A stretch of 64,000 bases of DNA from Bolinopsis microptera (taxonomy: Eukaryota; Ctenophora; Tentaculata; Lobata; Bolinopsidae). Made by a program: the position numbers and the translations under genes. The notes below the pieces were generated by a model, which worked only from the letters and a program-made list of their open reading frames with translations, did not search any database and was not told where the DNA came from. Positions 11,992 through 57,510 of the stretch are shown piece after piece (positions within the stretch are counted from its first letter, which is position 1; each line of letters begins with the position of its first letter). The stretch lies in the NCBI RefSeq assembly GCF_026151205.1, contig NC_087076.1:15646419-15710418 (forward strand), given 5' to 3'.

Positions 11992-13365
11992 TAGAAGAAC
12001 CCTCCCCTTTCAATTAATCAGACAAACTAATCAGGATGGAGCAGACCTGTCATCACCGCACTTTTGAGGACTGATAATATACAAAGTCGAGAACGAACAA
12101 TAATTAATTCTTGATTACCGCGAGTTTTTGTGACGAGCATGCGCTTTCAAGGTTCGGTTAATTTGCCATGCTGTGGAGTATTACAATCAGATGCAACTAT
12201 AGGGAAAGCAGTTATTTTCGAATATGGCGATTTAAAATTAAAGCAAATTTGACGATTAAAAACAATTCGGCAAACCAAGTTCAAGAAGTAAAGTTTAGCC
12301 ACAATCCAATCTTATCATTATCTTCAGCACAACAAGAATTTGCAAAATAAGTCTCATGTTAACAGGTTAAATCTTATCTTGAGTAAGTCACATTATAATA
12401 TAACGGAGTTACGACACGTTCATTAAAAAACAAACTGGAGTACTCGTTCATACGACGTTACTAATCTGGGGCCGGGCCAGGCCCATCATTATCAACAGAA
12501 AGTAACAGTAAAGAACTGATGAAGTGGGTCGTTAACACAATCCTTCTCCCGGCCCCCACCCTGCAGCCTGGTGATGTAATATACAATTATCGTGTAACAT
12601 GATCTTACCCAGAAGTGGGCACAGGGCATGGGGACAGGATTTATAGGCTCTTACAACCTGTTTAGCACTCTTATAGACTGCCATAGACTGTCGAACAAGT
12701 GTGTACCAGACTACTAATGACATTGTAATGGGGGCATGGGTTAGGTAAGGTAATTTTAGGTAAGGTATGGTAATTGTGGTCTAGTGGGAGCTTCTTTGTT
12801 AGGGTAAGCTCCGGCTATTGTAATTAACAATGTTGTGATAGGTTTATATAGTGAAGCAAGTTACCAGATAACGTGTTGGGCACACCAGGTCTTAACAAAA
12901 TTTTAACAGCAGGTCCTCAAATTGTGCTGTTTAAGGTGAAATCATGAATGGTACAGACTTTTCGGCAACGTTTCTTAAAATGAGCTCCAGAAAATCAGGT
13001 AATTGTTTTTCAACAATTATCCTCCACCCATCCCAGACACGATTAAAGAGCTGGAGCACTCCTACAGCATTGTTAAAAGTAGAGTTTCCTAGTGCTCCGG
13101 AGCTGTTCCTGGCATTAGAGTGGCTATTTAATTAAATAACTTATTTAAGTTATTTAAGTAAATATGTCATAACAGAAAGAAAACTCATTGGGCTGGCCAT
13201 AACTACAAAATAAGATTTAAGTTGGGCTATTATTATTTATAAGCGGCTTCGTGTCAAAAAGGAATTTTAAATTTAAGTTCAAAAAGTTCATTTATTTAAT
13301 TAGAATGAAGTCGTTACCAAAAAAAGGGGACCCCCGGCCCCAACCATGTAGCTGATACACGTCCT
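11992..13365. other. Intergenic, no gene seen
   Basis: AT-rich spacer after the WDR82-like stop codon. Short ORFs at about 12168-12350 and 12944-13135 show no recognisable motif or convincing splice sites. Nothing else could be supported. Confidence 0.5.
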
Positions 13366-14893: not shown

Positions 14894-17800
14894 TTACATT
14901 GTTTTCTTGGGGCTGATGTACACATTTGGGACTAAAAGTTTCGGAGCGTTCTGTATGGCCCCGTTAATGTGATCAACCCACTCCGCCATACCTTCAAGAG
15001 TTTCAAATTCAAACAAATAAGTGCTCTTGGGTGAGTAAAGAAGAAATTGTGACTGTCTCTGACCGTTCTTGACCCTTATCGCTGAAAGTGCGTACGAGTT
15101 TACAAAGTTTTCGATCTCCCGTGTTTGGGCATCGTAGGGTTGAACCTCGTATGTAATCCTAGATAACATGATCGCATCATCGAACAAATGTAACTTGTAT
15201 TTCTGGTAGTGTGGGAACTTTCTGTCTTGAGGGAAGGTATGAGCGGCCCCTGACTCGTCAATAATTCCCTTCACCCGATATACATCCGCCTCAGCGATAA
15301 TCCCCCTCTTTTTATCAGTCAGTATCGGACACTCAACCACTTGATGCTCTAGCTGCTTCAGCTCTGTCAGGTGACAGTATTGTGTTCTGGATTGTTCTAT
15401 AAACCCAGATAGATTTCCAAATTCACTTTCGCATTGTTTGAGCATTGTGTGATCGGAATGTTTGGTTGGTGTGTAGAATATGAGAGAGGAAACTAAAGTT
15501 TTCAGAGACTCGATTCTGTACATAGGCCGCGACAGAAGTTCAAAAAACTTTGTCCTGTTGGAGTTCTTACGATCAAAATGTTCTACAAATGCCCAGAAAG
15601 CTGGGTTGTCATTGATGTTCTTACGATAAATCGTTATCGTTGAAGGGTAATTATTGATATAGTTAGAATAACAATCGAATCGTTGAGCAAGCTGAAGAAA
15701 CGTATCACCGATTGTTTGATCAGCCGACCAAATCAACTGTTTGTGTTCCAATCTTTCCAAGAACACTTGGTGGATTTTCCTAACTTCCAGGAGATCAGAA
15801 AAGCAGATACGGAGATTTGCTGGATTAAGAATAGGTTTTTGATTTTCGCTGGCAGCTGAATATAGTGGAGTGTAGAGTTCTTGGTCTATTGTGTCCATTT
15901 GTCGTAAAAAGGTCCTTTCGGTCCGTACTATCTCCTCCAAAATCGTCATTCTTTGATCTACGACTACCCCTAAAAAATTGGTCGAATGATTATGCCTATT
16001 ATAGAGCTAAGCAACTCTTAAAACTATTGTTGCTGCAAAGCCAAGTTTAAAATCGTTTTAGCGTACAAACCTTTTGGGAAGATGAGCCTATGAGAATTGG
16101 TCTGCAAAGAAAGGGGAACTGATCTGTTCATCCATTCTGAAATGAATAAAACATGGGAATAACCAGCAGTTTACTTCAGTGTGCTTAATGTTCAATTAAA
16201 GGGTAATAAATATGATGAATAAATCTTCTACAGCTGGTATTACAATTTACGACCTTAAGTTTAACTCATCAATGTGCCCTGTATTTCCACCCACCTAACA
16301 TCATCATCACATCTTTGCCCAATGCCACGGGATCTTCTGACACATCACTGACTTCCTTTTCCTCATCTCCCTTCATATCCTCCAGATCCTTAACAAACTG
16401 GCTGGACAGCAGCACATCCACCAGCCTCATGCACAGAACCCCCCTTTTTACCTGCTCACTCTCGTTTGGAGGGGGAGATGAGGAGGGTTCTGTGCAGAGT
16501 TGTGAGAGGCTGTAAAACAGGATGTCTGCCAGGTGAACGTGCTCTGATTTGGACAGGAGTTCAAGACCTGAAGTTTAAGATTTGAATTCTCGACCGGAAA
16601 GAAAATGTCTAATATGTTGCCACTGACGTGCCGTGTAACGTCTATATGGTTTGGTTTGATTTATGAAGTAACTTGACATAGCCATTAAAAAACATCGTTG
16701 ACCGGTGTTGTTTCTTACCTTGCCTCAGAATAGCATTGACGACCCTATGCAACCCCGCAGTGTGTTGAATGTGTAGTCGGTGGCTGAACTGAAGTCTTAT
16801 ATCCTCAGCTATAGTTTCCAGCTGCTTCGCAAACAACACCCATGTTCTAACCTGAGATAAGTTCCTATGTTGGTTGCTCTGGAGGACTTTCAATTAAAAC
16901 TCTTCAATACATAGTCGTCTCAGTTGTCTATTTTTCGCGTTCGATGTACTAACTTCATCTGGAAAGTGGTATTGCCACAGTTTTATTGCCATATTCCGTT
17001 TTGTGAGTTTGTTACCTTGTCTTCCCTCAAGTAAATACTGAGAGGATGGACATTGTCTGGGTGGAGAAGCCAAGTCCCACAAATCTCTGCCCACTCCCCA
17101 TAAATGCCACCAAGGGGCGCATTAAATGGTACTGAAGTAACTCCTGCTAGTCTGTAGATTATATCCATTCCGAGAGATTGGTTGACAGTCGATACTCCCA
17201 CCGAACTGAAATAGTTCTACTGAATTTAAATCTCACGGACAGTGTTGAAATTTCTTGTCTTTCTTAAAATCAGTGGTACTGTGCATTCGGAACAACAGTT
17301 TTTCTACTAAATTGTTTTTACCTGAAAATGTCAATTCTTCCACCAAATTTTGGTACCAAGAGAAAACCACAGAGCTCTTTCCAAAATTCTGAATGAAGTT
17401 CAAGTCCACTTATATGGATATGCCGGGTAAGGTTCAGATAGCCGAGCTTGCCCGGTGCAAATATTCCCAGACTCTCAGCTTTCCTCCCGTTCAATGAGTG
17501 CTCGACTTGATTAAGAATAGACCTCAAAGAAGCTTTTTCAGCGTCATAAACCAATCCAATTATCCCTGGGTATATTGTTATTGATCAATGATGATATCAA
17601 TCAACCAGAGCAGCTTTAAAGAGCAATCGTATTTTTTATAATATCAATCTACAAATTGCCCCCGTACCCATCGAGCCCTTGTGGTTGGTACCTGTAACCA
17701 CAGTGCCGACTATCATCTCATACGCAGGAACATCTGATGATATAAGCAGAACTTTAGGGTGAGTGTGACAGGGCAGGTTCTCTCCCCACACTGCTCCGCA

Positions 17801-19960
17801 TCCCACGTCAGCAGCTAGCTCGGGTTTCTGGACCGTACCATATCCTCCTGGTGTGGGACAGAGTGGTTTATAGTTCTCCTGTTATGGATATAAATGGCAA
17901 CAAGTGACCCATGAGAGCCAACAGGCAAGAATCACTGTTAGACTACTGAAAATTTCAGTAAAACAATAATTACTGAAGACAAATTTAACAAGACTTTCCG
18001 ATAAAAGATAGGAATAAATGTTTTGAAATCTCTTTTAGAAAAATAACATTCCTAGAAAACTAACTGTACCTAGCGATGGAATGGTAGGTTTATCAGGTTT
18101 CTGTAACCAGTAGTTTATACTCGGAACTGTAACACCCTTCTTGGTTAACAAGTGTGGCTCTTTAACCAGAGTCCCATCCTCTTGTTGAAGTATTCTGAAC
18201 GATCCATGTTCACGGTAGATCTCGGTGATAGTTGAGACGCTCTTTGACTTAAGTTGACTTTTAGGGTCATCAGACTTTTTCAGAGGACTATTGCTGGACG
18301 CGTTTAGCTGTGTGTAAGACTTGGATCTTGCTTTCAGTTTACTTTTCTGACAATGTGTACTCTGGTTAAAACAGTCTAGTCTAAAAGGGTATGACGGTTT
18401 AAGAATTAAGAAAGAAGTGAAATAGAGTATTTATCATTGATTTTACTGTTCAGTGTAGAGTTTCTTTTTTACCTGTAAAAACCTGACATCTGGTCGATAC
18501 TCCTGACTTGTAGCTTTTCCCCAGTTATCCAGATCTTTTGGGTGCTTGTTCGGATCAACCCACCTATCTTTGAACAAGCTCGTATCAATATCCTCCACTT
18601 CATGCCCAGATTTCTCAAATATTCTACTAGGACTTTCTGGTTCTGGTACTGGATCATCGGTGTTCACGTAGTACTTGCCTAGTCTCTCCAGATCAGATCG
18701 GCTGTACTGGTTCTCTCCTGCTGTTGGTTCCTTCTGAACCGAGGGCAATTAGTTTATTTAATAAATAAAAGTCTGTTTAGACACAGATGTGGCACACTTA
18801 TAAATTGTCTCAAATAAAAATGTCTTGAGTAGATATTCCACACCTACCCTTTGATGATCCACCAGTAAGCTAGGTTTCTCCGAATTCTTAACACACATGA
18901 CATAGTACTGTTTCCAGGCACCATGTTGGGTGGGCGGGGGACTGTAGGGAAGGAACCAGCCCCTCGCTGCTGTTCGGTGTCTCCACAGGATGTCCTGCTC
19001 TGACAGATATCTCCAATGAGAACTCACCTGAGGCATGCCGGGATGTTCAATTTCTTACATGTGTTTGATAAACTCAATACTCTGACTCGAATCAAAAAGT
19101 TGGATAAGATGTACAAACTACAAGTCTGTATATATGCTTACAATATCAAGCTCATGTTCCTTGTAATGTTAAGTTTAACGGAAAGTACCTTGCTGGCAGT
19201 ACAAAGTTCAGCTGTGGTAAGGTAAGAGAAAATATGTAACATGAGCCATTTTGGCAGAGCGGACGTGGGATCGGCTCTCCACTGTGGTTCCGGCATCTTC
19301 TTCATGATCCACTCCCTGATACTAAACATCTCGCTCTGAGTTGTACGCTGGAGCAAGTGGACCAGCAGCTGTTTCCTTTGCCTTTCGTTCCACTTGTCAT
19401 GCCTGGGACAAAATCATGTAATTTGATAAATCCATGTAACCTAATTAAATGGGCAACCAGGCATCATACGTATACCATATCAACTCATTTGTTCAAACAC
19501 AAGACATGCACCGATCAGACTGATAACACAGTGACATTTATCTGTAACACCAGTGTGTGATAACACTTAACAGTGACATTTATCTGTAATACCAGTGTGT
19601 GATAACACTTAACAGTGACACTTATCTGTAATACCAGTGTGTGATAACACTTAACAGTGACATTTATCTGTCATACCAGTGTGTGATAACACTTAACAGT
19701 GGCATTTATCTGTAATACCAGTGTGTGATAACACTTAACAGTGACATTTATCTGCCATACCAGTGTGTGATAACACTTAACAGTGACATTTATCTGTCAT
19801 ACCAGTGTGTGATAAGAGACACTCTTTCCAGGAACAGCTTGTGATTGTCCTTTGCATCAAGCTTGGGGGTCCATGCACTTCTGTTGGTCTTCAAGAACTC
19901 CGGTTCAACTGGCTTCAACGTGAAAGATCTCAAAGAACTCTGAGATCCTCTTACTGACAT
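14894..19960 (-). CDS. ECT2L: ECT2L-like F-box and RhoGEF (DH-PH) protein, complete, 12 exons
   Basis: The F-box should bind SKP1 in an SCF ubiquitin ligase; the DH-PH module should load GTP onto Rho-family GTPases. Exons: 19960-19803, 19402-19189, 19027-18848, 18733-18473, 18361-18065, 17878-17692, 17565-17322, 17205-17016, 16851-16719, 16567-16295, 16136-16071, 15969-14894. Phases agree throughout, giving 1,092 aa (human ECT2L is shorter, about 900). ATG 19960 follows an in-frame TAG. Residues ~100-140 are an F-box (LPKWLMLHIFSYLTTAELC, then SSHWRYLSEQDILW), followed by GWFLPYSP and GAWKQYY, both typical of ECT2L. Residues ~395-560 weakly recall DUF4347, without its usual His and Cys motifs. 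DH is ~742-930 (EEIVRTERTFL, RPMYRIESL) and PH ~945-1075. The exon 5 donor is GTTAGT at 18064; an alternative four bases upstream would break the frame. Confidence 0.9.
19529..19824. repeat. 42-bp minisatellite that contains the ECT2L-like exon 1 splice donor
   Basis: Six complete 42-bp units run from 19561 to 19812 with a partial unit on the left. Read on the minus strand, each contains TTATCACACACTG then GTATKACAG. The rightmost copy is the true exon 1 end (19803) and donor. The array fills most of intron 1. Confidence 0.95.
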
Positions 19961-29500: not shown

Positions 29501-32500
29501 TTAATGTTATACTGAAATTTTGGTCTGAATAAATTTGGTTTACACCAATTTTAGTCAAAGTTTTGACTAAGCTTATGGTAGACTAAGCTTTGCCTACCTC
29601 TGGGGTATGGCAGTCCTATAGGAGGATGCCGGAGGAATCAGAATGTGTAATGTAGGATGATGGTAAGTGTTGTAAGATGTGTCGTGTATGAACGCTTAAG
29701 TGGCAACTGGCAGCTGGGTGTGGAAGAGACAGGTGAACTAAGACGACGTGTGAGTAGTCGCTATGTCACACCAGTCTGGTCCAGGTCCTCTGGCACAATT
29801 AAGCGTTTGGTGCGGTTTGCTATTTAAACACATACTCTGCTATTGTGATCGAAATTGATTACTTTGACGTCTAATTTCTTATTGCAGGCAGTTCAGCTAG
29901 CAGTTAGATCTCTAATTCTGTTTTTCCAGGAATGTCAAACCTCTCAATTTAATATCGCAGGCAAATCAGAAAGACCTCTCAATTTCCTTTTGCAGGTAAG
30001 TAAAATAAATATATCATTTCTTTATTGCAGATACATCTATAAAAACTCTCAACATTGCAGGTATTTCGACCTCTCATTTTCTTCCCGCAGAGATTTTAAC
30101 TTAACCCATTTTTTTATTACAAGGATATCAACTAATCCCCCTCATTTCATAACAAATTATCCCAGGGATGTCAGGTGAACGTGAAAACCCTTCGAGTATG
30201 GTCAGTAAGTTAGAAACGATCGAGGAGGCCGTGGATCGCATTTTGGAAAAAATAAACTTGAAGCTGGTAGTGATCTTCATAGCCATGCTGTGCACAGTCA
30301 TCAACACCGGTGCAGTTAGTTGTGCTACCATTTTCACAGGCTTCATTCCTTACAATGATTGGGAGTGTAATTCAACCAAGTGTTTTAATCTTCAGACCAA
30401 AGCTGAGGAAGCAGAGGACGCCGACAATTTCTTCTCGTACGAGACCATGTGCGGAAACGATTTTGTGGAAGGATCTGATTTCAAGTGGACCTCCAAGATG
30501 CACACATTCTCCATGGACTGGCATCTGTATTGTGGAAGAGAGGCTATCTTCTCCCTGCTAAACGGTGCAATAGGTTTAGGGTCGCTAATCGGCCTCTTAC
30601 TATCCACGGACTCTTTGATAGAATAGGAAGAAAGAAGGGAGGAATTGTAGGCAGTGTCATATCCATGCTTTCTGTGGCTGCTTGTTCAGTCGCTCCCAAC
30701 TACCAAGTCCTCTTCTTTCTGCGACTGGCGTCTGGGTTTGGCATCTTTGTCAACTTCACTGGAACCTTCTGCTGGATTGCTGAGTATGCGCCCACTCGTC
30801 TGAGAATGGCCATGAGTGTTTCTGTTTCTCTCGGATGGTGTGCTGGACTCTATGCTACCATCTGTTTAAGCTACCTAATAAATGACTGGCAAAACGTGTT
30901 TCTGGGTATTGCCGGAGTGAACATCTTCAGTCTCCTCACGTACTTCTTGATTCCACTTCCTGAGTCACCGAGGTTTTCTTTGATTCAAGGAAAGGAGGAG
31001 GAAGCTAAGAAGACTTTGAAAAGGCTAGCCAGGATTAGTGACAGCAACGTGGACGTGGATTCTCTGGATATCATGTTTGAAACGAGAAAAGAATACAATT
31101 ATTTCAATCAGCTTAAAGATCTAAAGAAATACCCTAACATGCTGAAACAGACCCTCCAAGGACTCTGGGTATGGTTTACAGTGGCCCTCATCGCCTACAG
31201 TTCCAATTATGGGTGGGGTAAGCTGGGCAGTGACTTGTACGCCACCTACTGCTTCTCAGCACTGAGTGAAGCTATAGCTTACAGCACTTCTGTCTTCGTT
31301 TGTGGTCTGCTGGGCCGCAAAAACGCCATTATCTTCTACCTAGTGATGATGATTCTGATGAACTTTCTCGCCATGGTGGATGTCCAATTTGCCAGTGCCT
31401 GGAGTCTGGAGCTTGTAGCTGGCTTGGTTGGATACGTAGCTACCTCGGCTGCTTTAAACATGCTGTGGCTCTTCTCAGCAGAACTAGCACCAACCTCGCA
31501 CCGGGGCATGATTATCTGCATGAGTTCCAGTGCAGCTAGGGTCGGTGCTACCATCGGCCCCTACACCAATCTTCTGTACGGAGTGACAGATAGGAAAGTA
31601 CCACTCGCTCTATTTGCTGGATTTACGATGCTGGCATGTGTTGCGATGTGGTTTCTGCCTGACACCACAGACAGGTCCATTGCAGAGACTCCAGAAGATG
31701 TGGAATTAATGTCGAGAAGGAAAAGTAAAGATAAGGATGAAGAAGAAGGAGATGAGAGTGATCCAGAGACGGAAGGAGTGGTGATGGAGAACAGGACAGC
31801 AGGTTCTGGTGTGTTCTCATGAGCTGATAAAACAATTAGTATTACGACTTAAGGGCGAGACTGACAATTGCAATATTTAATGATTTTCATAACAAACACT
31901 ATTAGATTTAACTCAATTACATATTTGGGATATTTTAAATATGTATTGTCTATAAAGGGCATCTATTTTATCTATTAGTCTACATTATCTTTACTTTCTG
32001 CTTAGACATTTTAATTCCAAGATTACTGCAAATCATTCTAAAATGTAGCATGCTGACAAATTTGAAGCCACACATTTTCTTTCATAAAGGCCTCGGATAA
32101 GCACTAAGAGCCGTACACTTCAACAGTAAGCATACCGGGACCCGGACATTCACTAACAATCCAACAAGATCGATTAACGTCAGGTCGTCAGGGTTGGACC
32201 TAAGTAGGATCACAATACTCGAGTACCTTGCACAAATGATTAATCATTAAAGGACCTGCTTTAGTATACTAACCGCTGCGTGTGGAATGTCTATACTTAC
32301 TTAGCTGACTTGAGATCACAATGTATAACATTGAGTCGGTGCAAATGTTCCAGGCCATTCACTATATTCCTGGACCATCGTATCAATCGCTTGGGTGGGA
32401 TTTCGCCTGAAAAATAAATCTTCATCATTGGACATAAATCAAAATTAATATTATGCTAAAATTTCAGACTTGCTTCGGCCCCTTATTTAAAAAACTTCCG

Positions 32501-46000: not shown

Positions 46001-49000
46001 CTGCCCTAGTTATAACTAGTTATATCTATTAATGCCCGAAAGTTAACTATTTACTACCTAGCTCTAGCAGTACTTCAGCTTCATTAAAATATAATTATCA
46101 TATTTAGGAATTAGGGTTGCTTATTAACGTAGTACTTGCACTGTAATTATATTTTGGGTTGATTATTTTAGCAGTAATCGACTCTCTAAGTTTCTTGCCA
46201 GTGCTTTAATCATCTGTTTACTTGGATTGTGGCTTACCAAGCTCCTTTTATTTTCGTGATAGCTCGCAAATTTTAGTGTAATTGTTTTTTAGCAGCTAAA
46301 AGTTGTGATGCTGATCATTTCTACTTGTTTAAATAAAGTTGAATAATCTAAATATAGGACATTTTACCTCACGACCTTCTGTCGTGAACTACAATTTGTA
46401 ATTAGAATTGAATAGGGATTATTTAGTTTAAGGAATGCGGATTTCAATCGCCCCAAGACATCGACCATGGCCCTTTCGGTCCTTTAAATTAGTACAATAT
46501 ATATACATAATATTATATAATGTGTACTTCAAACTCTTTTACATTCATTGTTTGTACATTAACATTTAGCAATGACCTTATACTGACATACAGTAAATTA
46601 TGATTACATGCAGTTATCCTTACATAGAAATAACCATAAGTCCGCCAGACTATTAAGATTGCAGCGGACAGAAGATTCTGCTAAATTTCAGTTTCAGATT
46701 CTACACATATTATTTAAATGCATACTTATACAAGACTGTTGACTAGTCTTGCCAATCCTACTTATTGCACAGCAGATGAGTGGAGTATTACAAACTCTGA
46801 CACGGGTTCAAATCTGCCTATTTTCTTGCTTTAAACTTGTGAACAATCTAATTCGTCTAGTACTAATTTTCCACATTTAGACCTTTTCCGTTTGATAATT
46901 TTTCATTCTGTTATTGAATTATTAATATCCAAATTATACTCAATCAACTTCGTGTAACCGGCTACTCAGTAGACTAGAAGGTTAAAAGTAGTTGACTGAA
47001 TCTACTGCTTTAAAGTATAATTTTGATTAACTACAGGGGCAAAATTCAGTGCACATACGTTTGCATCGGATCATATAACATGGCCATGTTTCATATTTGG
47101 GACCTATAACTTGATAGAAGGAATGCTACTCATTTGACGATTCCGTCGCCAAAATTTGAATTCGATTTTTAGAGGCCACATCCAATCAACACTGAATTGC
47201 TTTAAATACTCGTGTTTGTAGACCTGCTAGAAATTAGGCTTTCTGCACGATTCCCATAGTGCAGATCTAGTGTCAACCCAATCATCTGATCCCACGTAAT
47301 AGCTGGAGCTCCAATGTTTTCAGGATAAGTTTATCTTAAAAATTTATCTTAAAAGGCCAAACATAATATATTACAATTTGACTCGACCTGATCATTCAAA
47401 ATATCTGAAAAACGCAAAATTGAACGTTAATTCGGAAAAAATGAAGATTGTTATTATTTGATTTGATATATTCGTCAAATGAGTGATAATAGCAAGTTAA
47501 ACATTATGTTTATAATTAACATTATGTAATATGTATGTGTAATGACCCCTGTAGTTCGCAATCCTGCTTAATTAACATTAATTGTTTGCTTGTATCGTTG
47601 TTGAAACATTAAACGATTTTAATTTTACATGTTTTCGAAACTGTCGTGAGAGCGTTTCTCATATTTATGTCCATAATCTGAATGCTTGTCAATACATGTT
47701 TAATGTTCTTATCAATGAACAGATTCTTATGTTTCTGTGTCATTACTGTTGCATTGTTAATATTAGTTAATTAACAACTTAGTAGTAAACATTTAGGATT
47801 GCTTAGCAGGATATATACATTCCTTTGTTGTAAGGGCGTCGGCCTCCTGAAATATAAACAATTATTAAATTCACTGTGCTGTCCTGTAATGAGCTATTGT
47901 AAATAAGCCACAATTTTAAGAGTTACTGATCAGACTGGTGAAAAAAAGGTTATAGCACAATCTTGAATCTGCAGTGGCAAACAATTATTATGTAACTTTA
48001 GAAGCAACCCTAATTAAGATAAAAATGTTTGTATTTTCTTGCAAAAGTTTACGTTTTGAATCTATCTAACTTTACTTTTGCAGGTATCAAAAGCTGGACA
48101 GATTGGACAGTGATGGCGTCCTTTTTGCACGCTTTGCCTCATTTTGCTTCAACATAGAGAGCAATTCCATCTTCCAATCCATTCTTGAACAATATGACTT
48201 CTGCAAAGAATGTTGCCCTGTTGAGTGGGTCTGTGTCGTTTACATTTCGATAAGGATGATTCTGCATGCTTTCATGAAGAAACGCAAACTCAGTCGACTT
48301 CGTGACATTGGAGTATCTCCCAAGATCAGAAAATCTTCACACCTCAGTAAGATTGGCACCTTTCATGATGTAAGTTTTGTGGTGCGCTCACTTTCGGTGA
48401 ACCAAGTTTTCATGATGAACGGAAGGTATGGCCCTAGTTTACCGCAAGCCAATTCGAACACTTCTAATCCTGGAAATTATGGTCCTAGACTTCCAAATAC
48501 AATGAATCACGACGTCTTTCACCCAGAAATACCTCAACAATCTGCTCAAAAGTTTGGACCATCTCTTCCAATTGGTACATCCTCTGGGAATTTTGGGCCT
48601 CCTCTACCGAATTTCCAGAGAAGTGGTGGTATGTTTGGACCAGGTATACCTGTGAGGCCCACATTGCCAGAAACTTTAAACAACTTAGTGAATAATCCTG
48701 ACAAGTTTGGACCTCCTCTTCCCATACAATCATATCCGATATATAGACCTACTCTTCCTTCTGCTCCAGTATTTTCATCCTTTCCCGGAAATTCTGCTGC
48801 TAACAATGAACAGTTCAAGCAGCCTGCGGATGATATCCAGAAAGACAAGATCATCATATCTCAAAGTGATGACATTCAACCTGTTCCTGTTCCTGAAAAC
48901 TGCCACACAACTATAGAGAGACTATTTCAGCTCTACAATACTGAGCCTGTGGTCCTTCCAAGCAAAACTAATTTGCAGGATGTATTTGGGGGGAATGCTA

Positions 49001-50202
49001 GAGGTTTTGATCCATCTGATGACAAGATTGAACCAAAGATTATTTCCCAAAGTTTGGAATTGCTTCCTAACAAGGAGCACCAGCCTGAAGAACCAATTGA
49101 AGATCCTCCAACCTCAAATAACCCTATCTCTAATGTTCTTGAACCAATTCTTAAAGCATACATTGGTTCATTCCAACCACCTACATTCAGTTTGTTTCCT
49201 TCAGATGTAGTCAATGCTGTGATTAAGGGAAAGCCAGATAAAAGTGACTCTAATGCAGATCAGAAGGGTGCTCATCCAGAGCAACCTGCCCATTCTCCTC
49301 GGCATCGACATAATTCTCCACCACGGCAGCGGCAGCGGACTCCTCCACGGCAGCGGCAGCAGACTCCTCCAAGACAACGGTCTCCTCCAAGACAACGGTC
49401 TCCTCCAAGACAACGGTCTCCTCCAAGAAAACGGTCTCCTCCACGTCAGCGGACTCCACCTCGCCAGAGGACTCCCCCACGACATCGGGTTTCTCCACGA
49501 CAGAAATCTCCTAATCGACAGCGTTCCCCTCCGAGACAACGCTCTCCCAGGCGAGAAAAGTCTCCTCACCGCAGACGCTCCCCTCATCGTGATCGTAGAC
49601 ATTCTTCACATCGTAGACAATCCCCAGCACGAGATACAAATTTTGATAGGTCAAGATCAGAAAGTGGGAGACAGTCTGATCGGGATAGAGCTCCAGATAA
49701 ACATGGTCCAATGATGGGGGACCCATTAGTTCTGGGACCTCCAATGTCATCCCCGAATATTATGCCTCCAAATAATATGCAACAAAACAGGTTCGGGCCT
49801 CCTATGCCACCAAACAACATATCACCCGTTAGATTTGGCCCTCCCATGCCAAGAGGTAATATGCAAGCTGGTAGATTTGGTCCCCCTATTCCTAATAATA
49901 TGCAAGGGGAACGGTTTGGTCCTCCAATGCCATCAAATAATATGCAGCATAATCGATTTGGTCCACCAATGCCACCAAATGATATGGGGAATATGCAGGG
50001 ACCTAACAATTTTGGGGCCTTTCAGCCACCTGGCAACCGTTTTCCACCTGGAATGAACCAGAATTTCCCTCAAAGACCAGGAATGGGAGGTTCTGGTCCA
50101 ATGAACAACATGATGGGAAATCCTCAATTCAACAGAGGTTTTAATCCTCAGCAAAGAATGATGCAACGTGGTCCTGGTCCATTTCGACCTAGAGGGATGT
50201 AG
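43007..50202 (+). CDS. RPRD-type CID protein with RS-like and FGPPMP-repeat tail, 7 coding exons
   Basis: RPRD/Rtt103 proteins bind the phosphorylated RNA polymerase II C-terminal domain in the nucleus. Exons: 43007-43151, 43555-43604, 43686-43905, 44045-44200, 44313-44488, 44789-44964, 48084-50202. Phases agree, giving about 1,013 aa. ATG 43007 follows an in-frame TGA; a four-codon uORF (ATG 42994) precedes it. The N-terminus is a CID (LLNELSGAQESIEKVSVWIQ, KKLTLLFLVNDVLQHSKRKG, ERMLDIWESREVF), followed by a coiled-coil region in exons 4-6 as in RPRD1/2. Exon 7 opens with an odd hydrophobic stretch (48.1-48.4 kb) that may be a retained intron. Then come FGPPLP motifs, an RQRSPP-rich segment (49.3-49.65 kb) and FGPPMPPNN repeats. 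Length and tail recall RPRD2 more than RPRD1. Exon 3 has two acceptors 8 nt apart; only 43686 keeps frame. Confidence 0.85.
44965..48083. other. Long intron of the CID gene
   Basis: A 3.1-kb AT-rich intron, much longer than the others in this gene. A B-box-like gggttcaaatctgcc at about 46806 follows a loosely A-box-like stretch and may be a tRNA-derived SINE remnant. No coding exon was recognised. Confidence 0.45.
49318..49650 (+). repeat. Coding minisatellite: RQRSPP repeats
   Basis: Repeated 18-bp units (ccaagacaacggtctcct and variants) encode a run of Arg-Gln-Arg-Ser/Thr-Pro-Pro units. They pass into Arg/Ser-rich sequence (HRRRSPHRDRRHSSHRR). This is an RS-like region inside exon 7 of the CID gene. 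Confidence 0.9.
49770..50000 (+). repeat. Coding repeat: NNMQ..RFGPPMP units
   Basis: Six or so degenerate units of 14-16 codons, each containing RFGPPMP or RFGPPIP followed by an NN(M/I) step, form the C-terminal tail of the CID protein. Confidence 0.85.
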
Positions 50203-51899: not shown

Positions 51900-52626
51900 G
51901 TAAGTGGAGAAGGCTTTTAAGTCTTAAATTCACTGCTCGATCATCAACGCTTTCAATCGTTTTCTGAATGTTTCATGGTCTGTAGATGAAGATTCTCTGA
52001 TTGAAAACATTGTTGATTTATATTTCAGGTCAGAACAAACAGTAATCAGTATGTCTACAGAATGGAACTGATGCGGATAACTATTGCATTGATTTAATAT
52101 TTCTGTTTGGATGATAATATTAGTTAGAAATAAACCTTCATTTTGAATCCTTGCAGCATTTGTTTTAAAAATAAAATCGAGAGGTTTTTTCCATTGTTTT
52201 AGATGTCTGAAAGCCCTTGCTAAATATCTTATTATGAAATAACCGTATTTTTAATAACATAGCATATAATATGTGGTACTGGTGTTTTTCTTCTTGGTAC
52301 ATAGGAAAGTGACCACTGCTTCGTATTCTTCATCTGCTGATAATGTTTTAATCCCAAAAAGATGTCAGAAATCAAATTAAATCATTTGAAATACGATCTT
52401 CCAGTCAAATATTCCATAAAAAACATTCCTACCATATTCACATTTCATATTATTCACATTTCATATTATCCCTACCATATTCACATTTCATTTTATTCAT
52501 ATATTTCATATTTCTACATTTCGTAGACATTCAATCAAATTTAATGTAATCGATTCTCAGGTCTTCTGCCGAACAGTGAAGAAGATAATTAGCTTTATTT
52601 AATTCTAACGTTTAAAACTGTTTCAG

Positions 52627-55600
52627 ATCGTCAAGAAGGAACGATAGAGACGATAGAGACAGGTCTGATGATCCTTTGGCTGATGACTTCAACGGAAGTT
52701 TTGCTGATGATGGAATACGGCCAGAAGATGCCATAGACGAGCAATTACCATACGCCAAACCTCGAGAGCAAAAGAAACCAAAGAAGACAACAAAGAAACT
52801 GCCATCATATGATCCACGCCAGATTTTATCTTATGGTTTTCGATTGGATGCACCGCCAGATGGTGAGCAAGCTGTTGGCTTCATGTTACTTCCTGATGGA
52901 ACTTTGGCTGCAATACCTATCGCTCCCCACATGTTCCTTGCTAAACCGAAACCAGTCTCTCCAAAGGCAGAGGAGGTTGAGGAAGAGGTAGAGGGTCCAA
53001 AAACTCCTGAAGGAACACCTGCAGTTCAAACTCTTGAAGAAGCTGATGGCAATGAAAAGACTGGTCCAAAAACTCCAGATTTGGAAGATTCTGAGCTAGA
53101 AGAAGGTGAAGTTAGTGAATCAGAAAACGAGGAAGAAGATTTAAAGGTCAATCCTGGTGCTGCGAAATATGATCCTACTTCTGAGTATAATCCTGAGCTG
53201 TCTGGGAAATATAATGATGAAGTTGATGGTGTTCCATTTGACATCGGTGAGGATGGATACATTACTGATGAATACAAGGATTCTGCTTCCTCTGCTGGCA
53301 GTGCTCCCTCTATGCCATCTCCGGAGGTTTCTGATGAAGAGGACCCCCAGGCAATAGCCTTGAAAAATGTTGAATCGTGGAAGGACGATTATAATGAAAT
53401 TGATGGTGAGGCACTTGAGGAAACCAAACCACCTGAACCGTCTTCATCAGAGGAAGGGGAATTGTCTGATGGAGAAAATGCCCCTCCTGCAAAATCAGGT
53501 ATGACTGGTCTTGCATCATTCCTTGATAGATTATCAGATGGTGAAGAAAAGAGTGCTGTTCAAGAGGAAAGATCTGAATATGAGCAATTCTATCCTCCAG
53601 GATATCTCGAAAATTCTAAAATCGAAAACAAGTCTAGTAATAAATCCCCTCCAGTTAAACCATCTAAACCTGCATATCTGATGGGAGCAATGTAAGCCCT
53701 GACAGGTCTTTAGATTCATCTCGCAAAATATTTCATCAGGAGGATAGCCAACCTCCACAAGGCTATCAAGACATGATGGGTATGGACAAAACATCTCCTG
53801 AGCCTAGGATAAGACACAACTCATTTGGTTACAACAGTATACCTCCAATGAGGCCTAATGCTCCTCCCTACAATGGTGGTGGGCCAAGATTGAGGTATGA
53901 ACAGAGAAATCCTGGTCCTGGAAATGAAAGAGGATTTCCTGGTGATTATGTGAGACAGAGACCACACCATGAAGTATATTCCCCATCTCCTCCCCATTAT
54001 CAACATTCTCCTCCATCCCTTTGTAACAGATCACCACCCCCACCTAGGTCACCTCCAAGAAATAGGTCACCTCCCCGCAATAGGTCACCACTGCGGAGTA
54101 GGTCGCCTCCTCGCAACATGCACATGATGTCACCGCCTCCCATGCTGCATCAGCAACATCAGATAAGACCCCAGCCTTCAGGTTCTCGTGACTACCAAAG
54201 ACATCCTCGACCTTACCCACCAGCACCTGTACAGAGACATGCTTATCCTCCTCCAAGGCATCCTCGACCACTGAGTTACTATTCTGCTAGACCTCTTTAC
54301 ATTAATCCTAATTCCGATGACAGAAGGGAAGAGGATTTTCCTCCGATGAATCATTTTTTAGGGGTAAGCCCCCGCGCCATGCGACTCGAGGGAGTTGGCA
54401 GCGGGGGTACCATTAAAGCAGCTGTTCAAATGTTCCAAGTTGTTCATTTTACAGTTAAATGTGCAGTGACTCTGTGTGTTTTTGCTACTATCATAGAAAA
54501 GTTGAAAGTCAGATTAAAACTGATAGGGTTACTCCCTAAAAAGTCCAAAGATGTATCAAGCATATTTGGGCCGAACTTTGCCTCTCAAGAACAGATTTTG
54601 GTGTATGTTATGACTGGTCACTCTTATGGTCCACCACTACCACAAAGACCTGCTGTACCTGAACAGACTGCTTACTCTGAGAGCTCACAAAGTCATGGGA
54701 GCTATTCAGGGCATCAGCAGAGACATGCAGATCATCAGGAACAAACATATTACGCAGAAGATCCACGATATGAATCGAGACGAGAAAGGCACCATGGTGA
54801 TGAATATGTTCATGGTACTAATCCAAGTTCTGATAGACATCCTGACAGACAAAAGTCATCAAAAAACAGAAGGACCATAAGCCCTAATCAAAATATTCGT
54901 TCAATTAACCATTCAGGGCACTATCCAGGTCAATCCTTTGGATCTGATAATCCATCTATAGATGGAAAGCTAGTTATGCAACAAGAAACTGCTCAAAACA
55001 GTGAAATTCAACAGTATCATACAGATGGCATTCAAAGGTACAATACTCCTAAAAAGTTTGGTCCTCCTTTACCCTCTGCCCCATCCAACAATCCACAAGT
55101 CTATTATAAGGATGATTCTGATGAAGAGTATTTCAAACCACGAGTGCAGCAATACTCCTCCAGACCAGATGTTCCTAGTAGAAGACCAGATCCTGTATAC
55201 CCCCGACCAGATCCTGTGAACACCCGACCAGATCCTGTGTACGCCCGACCAGGTCCGCCTGAACTAAAGCAAGAACCGGTAAAACCACCGTTTGAGGACC
55301 AGGATAGGCATAGTGTTAAAAAAAGCAGGGAAAGAAAAAGACCTCAACCAGTAGACATTAGCAGCAGTGATGATGCTATGTCTGAAAGTTCTGAGGATGC
55401 ATCAGAAGCTGTTCAAGATATTAATCATGTTCCCTTTGCTGATTTGCCAGTGCCAAAAGTAAATTATTCAAAAGAAAAAGCCAGTAAGCCCTTCAGTGAT
55501 ATACCAGCACCAAGAATTTCTGCCCTGCCTCATACGGGCATGGACTCCTTAAATTTCAAGCCATTTGATGAGTTATTGTTGAATGAGAAACAGAAATTCA

Positions 55601-57510
55601 AGCCAATTGAAGAAACCGGTGAGGAACCAAAGTTTTCAAGCTTTCCAAAGTCAATCTATGTTATGCTTAAAAATGAAGAATTGGCAACATCCATTGACAA
55701 AATTCTAGGAGCATACGATATGGAAACTATCCTAAACAAGCAAGATAGTGAAGATGAGGGAGCTGATATTGGACCATCAATTTTACAGTCTATTTTTGGT
55801 GGAGAAAGCAGAATGGCCCCAAATTATGACATCATGGACAAAGAAGAACAAATGGAAGAAAGACGATTAGAAATGCAAAGAAGGGAACCTGCAGAAGCTC
55901 AGGCACTCAAAGAAAAAGCACTAGCAGATAAGACTCCTGAGAAAGAACCAAAAAAGATGAAAGACAGACGGAAAAGAGGAAAGAAATCTAATGTTGAAAA
56001 ACCAAGTTCTTTGAAGTCTCAATCCTCTTCGATGGCTGTCAAAGCTTCACCTTTGCATTCATCCATATCCCCTTCAGTACCACAAACGGTGTTATCCTCT
56101 GCTGTGACTAGGCCAAGTAATGTACCAACAGTTGCTCCAACAACCACTGTGGTGACTAGCAGTTCAAAGCCAAAGATACTAGATGCAGATATGGAGGCTA
56201 AACGTGCCGAGGTGTTAGCTAAAATAGCTATGTTCAAGCAGCAAAATGAACAGGAGAAACAAGAACTTCAGAAGTGGAAAAAGGAGAAAAAAGGGGATGT
56301 TGTTATCAAAGATGTTGATCCCAAAACCTTGACGAACTCTGGGAGAAAACGATATACTTTCAACATCGAGGAAGCAAAAGCACAGCAAGAGGCAAAAGCA
56401 CAGCAAGCTGCTAAAGCTAAAACTTCAACTACACCTGCTCCTTCCGCAGCTACAACATCATCAGCTACGTCTACTATTACATCTGTGTCCCCTTCTGTGA
56501 GTAGTGATACCACATTAAGCACACTGCCTAGATTTTATCAAGCTGCAGTTCAAGGCATACCTCCGACTCTGGAGACCATGTCAAGTGTTGGATCTTTACC
56601 TCCCTTACCAGTCATGCCTACTCCTCCTGGTATGAATCCAGGTTTTAATCCAGGTTTTAATCCAAATATGCCAATGAACATGGGTATGCCAAATATGCCT
56701 ATGAACATGGGGATGCCAAATATGCCAATGAACATGGGAATGCCAAATATGCATATGAACATGGGGATGAATATGGGGAACCAAAATTGGTATGGGCCTC
56801 CTATGGGCAATTTTAACCAATTCCCAAATTCAATGCAGAATAACTATAATGGTTTCAATGCTCCCCAAGTTAGACCTTCCCCCCCTATAATTTCTGCTCC
56901 TCCAACTATCAGACAGGTTGGTCCCAGACCAACTCCACCCGGACTAGAAGGGCCACAACCATCAGGGGTCAATCCAACTTGGTCTGCATCAGCTGGTCCA
57001 AGAGCCGGGTCCTTCTCTTCAAATGCCTTGCCTACATCTAGCACACCCCGATCTTCTATACCAACCATAACCATGTCTACCAAATCAATTCCAACAGTTC
57101 ACAGTTTACAGCTTGCCTCCTCCCATGTTTCAGGAGTGCCTCAGACTATTACTGTAGGTTCACACAGCTCTTCTAAATCTGCACAAACTAAAAAACAAGT
57201 GGCTATAGATGAAGAGAAGATGAAGAAGGCACTAGAGGTGAAGCAAAAGTTAGAGCAAGGAATGAAGAAATTTCATGAAATGAAGGAAAAAGGAATGGTG
57301 GTCAAGAGGAATAGGTTTGATGTTACTCCAGATGAATTGAAGCTTCAAGGGACAATGAGCAAGACCGAAACTATGTCTACTCCATCTACCCAATCTAGCC
57401 AGCAGCCTGCAAAGTCTATATCTGATGAAGCGGCACCTGGTGTTGATTTGGATGATATTGACAATCTTGTTGATCTGAAAACTGATATGGAGTTAGATCT
57501 TGATTTTTAA
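52627..57510 (+). CDS. Long disordered Pro/Ser/Arg-rich protein block (possible 3' part of the CID locus)
   Basis: Begins after a CTGTTTCAG acceptor with SSRRNDRDDRDRSDDPLADD and has no early ATG, so it needs an upstream exon of phase 2. The first frame (52627-53695) contains an ordered-looking VGFMLLPDGTLAAIPIAPHM and acidic LEEGEVSESE motifs, and stops at TAA 53693. The frame +1 relative to it continues to TAA 57508-57510. Removing GTAAGCCCTGACAG (53692-53705) joins the two exactly into about 1,620 codons. Later parts have SPPRNRSPPRNRS, KFGPPLP and YGPPLP motifs shared with the 48-50 kb exon, a PNMPMNMGM repeat, and Lys/Glu-rich helices near the end. A phase-compatible GTCAAG donor at 49650 could link both blocks (inference). 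The hydrophobic stretch at 54364-54600, opening with GTAAGC, looks like an in-frame retained intron. Confidence 0.7.
56666..56777 (+). repeat. Coding 27-bp repeat (NMPMNMGMP)
   Basis: About four units of nine codons, rich in Met, Asn, Pro and Gly, lie in tandem within the long disordered coding block. Reverse-strand ORFs here are shadows of this repeat. Confidence 0.9.

Follow-up and report, generated by a model that had tools for sequence, protein, structure and literature searches.

Introns close in size to the segment considered here are described in Stentor coeruleus, where they measure 15 to 16 nt; their branch A usually occupies position 10 or 11, with a tail of 5 nt behind it (PMC9505925). 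In Arabidopsis, 48 predicted introns of at most 30 bp were submitted to RT-PCR, and cDNA was obtained for 31 genes, all of which kept the segment (PMC6161759). As to human RNA-seq data, a survey of short introns states that non-canonical ends are the prevailing kind among introns under 70 nt, and that the aligner has perhaps inflated the share of canonical ones (PMC5435141). Finally, gene-breaking indel errors in long-read assemblies are themselves the subject of several published papers.

The locus under study lies in a window of 64,000 nt (the whole stretch of DNA that was analysed), on contig 5 (23.6 Mb) of an assembly of 264.65 Mb in 232 contigs. Its elements are the following:

52616 to 53692, + strand: frame A, the upstream coding part of the gene, an open frame with codon starts at 2 mod 3
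53668 to 57507, + strand: frame B, the downstream coding part, one base off frame A, 1,280 codons open, codon starts at 1 mod 3
53668 to 53692, + strand: overlap of frames A and B, 25 nt, from the last frame-B stop (53665) to the frame-A stop (53693)
53692 to 53705, + strand: GTAAGCCCTGACAG, proposed as a 14-nt intron and read here as frame-B coding sequence

The initial annotation had described a frame of 339 codons stopping at 53693, a frame of 1,245 codons opening around that stop, and a 14-nt GT-AG segment whose removal joins the two. The listing of open frames agrees with this description: frame A, which counts 339 codons from its first TTG, is ended by a TAA at 53693-53695; the open stretch of frame B is 53668-57507, with 1,245 codons from the ATG at 53773; and deletion of GTAAGCCCTGACAG (53692-53705), which starts with GTAAGC and finishes with CAG and hence has the GT and AG ends, joins A to B with no stop left. 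The segment had also been said to bridge the frames exactly; it does so, but it is not unique in this respect, as two GT..AG segments of 56 nt and one of 338 nt (53692-54029) join A to B as well. The claim of a perfect donor has to be given up. The exon ends in T instead of G (AAT before GTAAGC). With an approximate scoring matrix, the + strand of the window has 3,642 GTs, of which 88 equal or surpass the donor at 53692. The acceptor of the 14-nt segment is matched or beaten by 542 of 3,683 AGs.

Compared with the systems above, the segment resembles the Stentor introns by a length within 1 to 2 nt of theirs and by its GT and AG ends, and differs from them in the position of the branch A and in the tail, in a genome that from its genes looks animal and in which two presumed introns are longer. 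With the Arabidopsis cases it shares the situation of a very short segment taken for an intron, one of those being of 14 bp; those, however, were annotation predictions found retained by RT-PCR, whereas the segment here is a proposal made from raw sequence. The presumed error here would resemble known single-base deletion errors of assemblies in the one-base offset, the long overlapping frames and the occurrence in several genes of one assembly.

We consider that A and B very probably form one coding exon from which one base is absent in 53668-53692, be it through an assembly error or in a real allele. According to this scheme, the two frames would belong to one uninterrupted coding exon, in an animal gene present as a single copy; the absence of one base within 53668-53692 would shift the frame by one and create the stop at 53693, and the GT and AG flanking this stop would be a coincidence. 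The overlap and the one-base offset that a one-base loss leaves are both present at the A/B junction. Any one-base loss must sit within the overlap, 53668-53692; frame B being one base behind frame A, a one-base gain anywhere in this interval would equally join the two. Together, A and B extend over 4.9 kb, in which there is no further stop or frame change. An old pseudogene was therefore set aside, there being no other lesion in these 4.9 kb.

As to the origin of the missing base, the assembly probably retains a single-base deletion error; that the sequenced haplotype really lost one base is possible but rather unlikely. Both the missing base itself and the preference for an error over an allele are inferred. 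Breaks of the same offset are found elsewhere in this genome, in genes that have intact relatives. The first of these lies in the window:

30153 to 31822, + strand: SLC22-like (Sugar_tr/MFS) gene with a one-base break, matching Pfam PF00083 with E = 3.3e-35 in its second half

We take this gene and its relatives to be SLC22-like. The search of the same genome gave 45 rows for the family, the window copy included: 24 are frames of at least 470 aa without a stop, 3 are long but interrupted by stops, and the remaining 18 are shorter. Since 24 of the 45 rows are stop-free over this length, single-exon structure is common in the family. Ten of the 18 shorter rows, corresponding to nine genes, were analysed and eight were left out; breaks were placed by tblastn with three intact relatives (L025, L027 and L030). 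Four of the nine genes carry a one-base break, namely the window copy, L026 (on C9), L034 (on C6) and L035 (on C11). In each of the four, the frame of the second open reading frame minus that of the first is 2 mod 3, as at A/B, so that all five breaks are of one offset.

The comparisons with intact relatives locate these breaks as follows. In the window copy, aligned to L025, the change of frame falls between window bases 30564 and 30608, with 44 nt in place of 15 residues. In L035, the halves join at locus base 1335, at which residue 336 of L027 is followed by residue 337 with one base too few, and the tblastn halves of L026 are likewise one base short. For L034, tblastn is ambiguous, giving one base short against L025 but, against L027 and L030, overlapping parts that a gain of two bases would explain as well; its DNA alignment with the intact tandem neighbour L040 (a 547-codon frame) has one single-base gap, at the break, the proteins being 94% and 86% identical over the two halves. 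From these alignments, no intron is needed at any of the four transporter breaks. GT..AG bridges are nevertheless found there by chance: L026, L034 and L035 each have one of 20 nt, L026 and L035 each have a second one of 8 nt, and the window copy has two, of 11 and 14 nt.

With some 28 genes of around 1.5 kb each, the break rate is roughly one per 10 kb, which predicts about 0.5 breaks for the 4.9 kb that A and B occupy, a rough figure given that the eight short rows left out stand outside the count. The four transporter breaks could also be real gene lesions instead of errors. Two lesions of another kind look biological. In L029 (G000:C1), an 8-nt tandem duplication at about 2443-2475 breaks the frame; L029 and L027 are near-identical transporter genes on C1, with 17 substitutions in 1,647 alignment columns. 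In L028 (G000:C12), a short in-frame insertion with a TGA is found at about 2759-2775 of the reverse complement, in a gene otherwise open. L037 has intron-like gaps, and the presumed introns of L037 and L026 measure roughly 250 nt and 1.26 kb. The type of break in L038 was not resolved by the comparison, and the second half of L036 was not found within the stretch covered.

How readily a one-base loss brings about a GT..AG bridge was estimated by simulation, one base being removed at 12,769 positions in a set of eight unbroken coding sequences from the same genome. L027, L030 and L033 in this set are close relatives, and two members are taken from the very gene analysed here. A subgroup of 2,858 simulated cases had a frame overlap of 10 to 45 nt. 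A bridging GT..AG segment of at most 14 nt was present in 47.6% of all 12,769 losses and in 31.1% of the 2,858 overlap-matched ones, and the proportions rose to 86.7% and 71.2% for segments of at most 32 nt. An equally high-scoring donor was found in 7.7% of all simulated losses and 4.2% of the matched ones. The requirement for a GTAAG donor together with a bridge of up to 32 nt reduced the proportion to 0.85% of all losses and 1.5% of the matched ones, this share ranging from 0 to 2.7% across the simulated sequences. Thus, the length and the AG end of the bridge at A/B are expected by chance in 31 to 48% of cases, and its GTAAG donor in 0.85 to 1.5%. This donor is the one unusual feature of the segment; it was spotted after the fact, and we judge it to be outweighed by the other evidence. 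As bridges of at most 14 nt occur in a third to half of simulated one-base breaks, short GT..AG bridges are weak evidence of introns.

The coding signal was also compared between the readings. By codon log-odds, the coding signal is that of frame A as far as about 53665 and that of frame B beyond about 53685; within frame B, the log-odds are positive in 60 of 64 bins of 20 codons, scores for which the training set included much of frame B itself. Among 28 possible points for a one-base switch between the frames, 21 score above the model with a 14-nt intron and 7 below it. The best switch points, at 53674-53676 (16.7 bits) and at 53692-53694 (16.5 bits), are not separable by codon score, and the intron model obtains 14.0 bits. 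With training that excluded this gene, the one-base switch has a best score of 5.1 bits and a median of 3.8, against 2.9 for the intron model. The codon scores thus lean to the one-base reading and are not decisive, the evidence at the junction amounting to 1 to 3 bits.

The joined product of A and B is long and rich in proline, RS and methionine, and the protein is seemingly disordered. Neither frame has a match in Pfam at E up to 0.1 or in PDB at E up to 1, and no second copy was found in its own genome with a 501-bp DNA query, the frame-A protein or the first 231 residues of B. Searches of Rfam at gathering scores and for tRNAs gave no useful result for this question.

Two observations concern the gene outside the junction. 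Inside frame B, the segment 54364-54611 has a hydrophobic translation, and its bins 54448-54567 are slightly negative for coding; it begins with GTAAGCCCCCGC and a GC-rich inverted repeat, seen by eye, and has one copy in the genome. It could be an ordinary intron with a length that is a multiple of three. Upstream, a neighbour gene at 48103-50202 is proline- and RS-rich with YGP.LP motifs, as is the gene at 52616-57510, and matches frame B weakly (E = 0.008), away from the A/B junction. The two are possibly an old tandem pair.

Among the explanations that dispense with a missing base, an intron of normal size would use the same donor at 53692 and an acceptor at 54029 (338 nt), the part of frame B that it encloses being untranslated. 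Both its length and its phase are such that A runs on into B, and its acceptor, TTTGTAACAG, is strong. However, a tested run of 107 codons within it has no stop in frame B and scores as coding there, with 12.9 bits against -22.5 and -51.3 bits in the two other frames (training without this gene); a stop is absent from 22 of 12,210 noncoding stretches of equal length, and a score as high is reached by 10 of them. We regard this intron as very unlikely. A 215-nt intron at 53499-53713 was rejected: its donor is strong, but it would cost about 28 bits of frame-A coding signal.

The 14-nt segment could, alternatively, be a functional spliceosomal intron, in which U1 and U6 would read GTAAGC, the A of CTGAC (position 11) would serve as the branch, and CAG would be the acceptor. 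Besides the GTAAG donor and the AG end, the segment contains this CTGAC, which we take to be a branch-like motif, and its removal restores the frame. A human RNA-seq study also counts hundreds of short introns in bins from 10 to 70 nt, with the reservation that those with canonical ends are possibly inflated by the aligner (PMC5435141). Such an intron is opposed by the T at exon base -1 and by the frequency with which short GT..AG bridges arise by chance. The only As of the segment are at positions 3, 4, 11 and 13, and a branch A at position 11 leaves a tail of 3 nt, in contrast to 5 nt in Stentor; the arrangement of most Stentor introns, with the branch A at position 10 of 15 and a 5-nt tail, is absent from the 14 nt. 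An intron of this kind would be shorter than the 15 to 16 nt of Stentor and far below the other introns seen here, the two presumed ones measuring some 250 nt and 1.26 kb. Human ultra-short introns from one screen are of 37 to 65 nt (PMC4463651), and the Arabidopsis predictions of at most 30 bp were retained in 31 of 31 cases with cDNA, one of them 14 bp long (PMC6161759). We hold such an intron to be highly improbable.

Of the three readings offered by the initial annotation, an indel error is the one that the same-offset breaks in conserved genes favour. The mini-intron and the collapsed intron are disfavoured, since they rest solely on the letters GTAAG...AG and short bridges are common by chance. 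Most likely, the GTAAGCCCTGACAG region is ordinary and contains no mini-intron. A 14-nt animal intron, if true, would challenge the accepted size limits of splicing. Some coding genes of the assembly carry one-base breaks, and gene models are affected by them.

Programmed -1 ribosomal frameshifting would link A to B at the level of translation, and the sign of the offset is the correct one. No X XXY YYZ heptamer is present in 53640-53700, however, and the RNA fold predicted for 53640-53760 does not surpass those of shuffled sequences (z = 0.06); we hold this mechanism to be very unlikely.

Removal of the XBP1 intron swaps reading frames, and the sites of IRE1 are CNGCNG motifs, in hairpins at both ends of the intron. 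Unconventional splicing of the IRE1 type, known for the short intron that XBP1 mRNA loses without the spliceosome (PMC5435141), is exceedingly improbable for the short segment here, as CNGCNG is absent from 53668-53720, the nearest ones in L001 mapping to window positions 53292 and 54091, and as the RNA fold of the region is average.

Elsewhere in the window, a RhoGEF exon was recognised on the minus strand at 14894-15949 (Pfam PF00621, E = 2.4e-32), with a weaker PH match (PF00169, E = 0.0029) that is below its cut-off. Two tandem arrays were also noticed, at 19528-19815 and at 675-794, with units of 42 bp and 49 bp, respectively.
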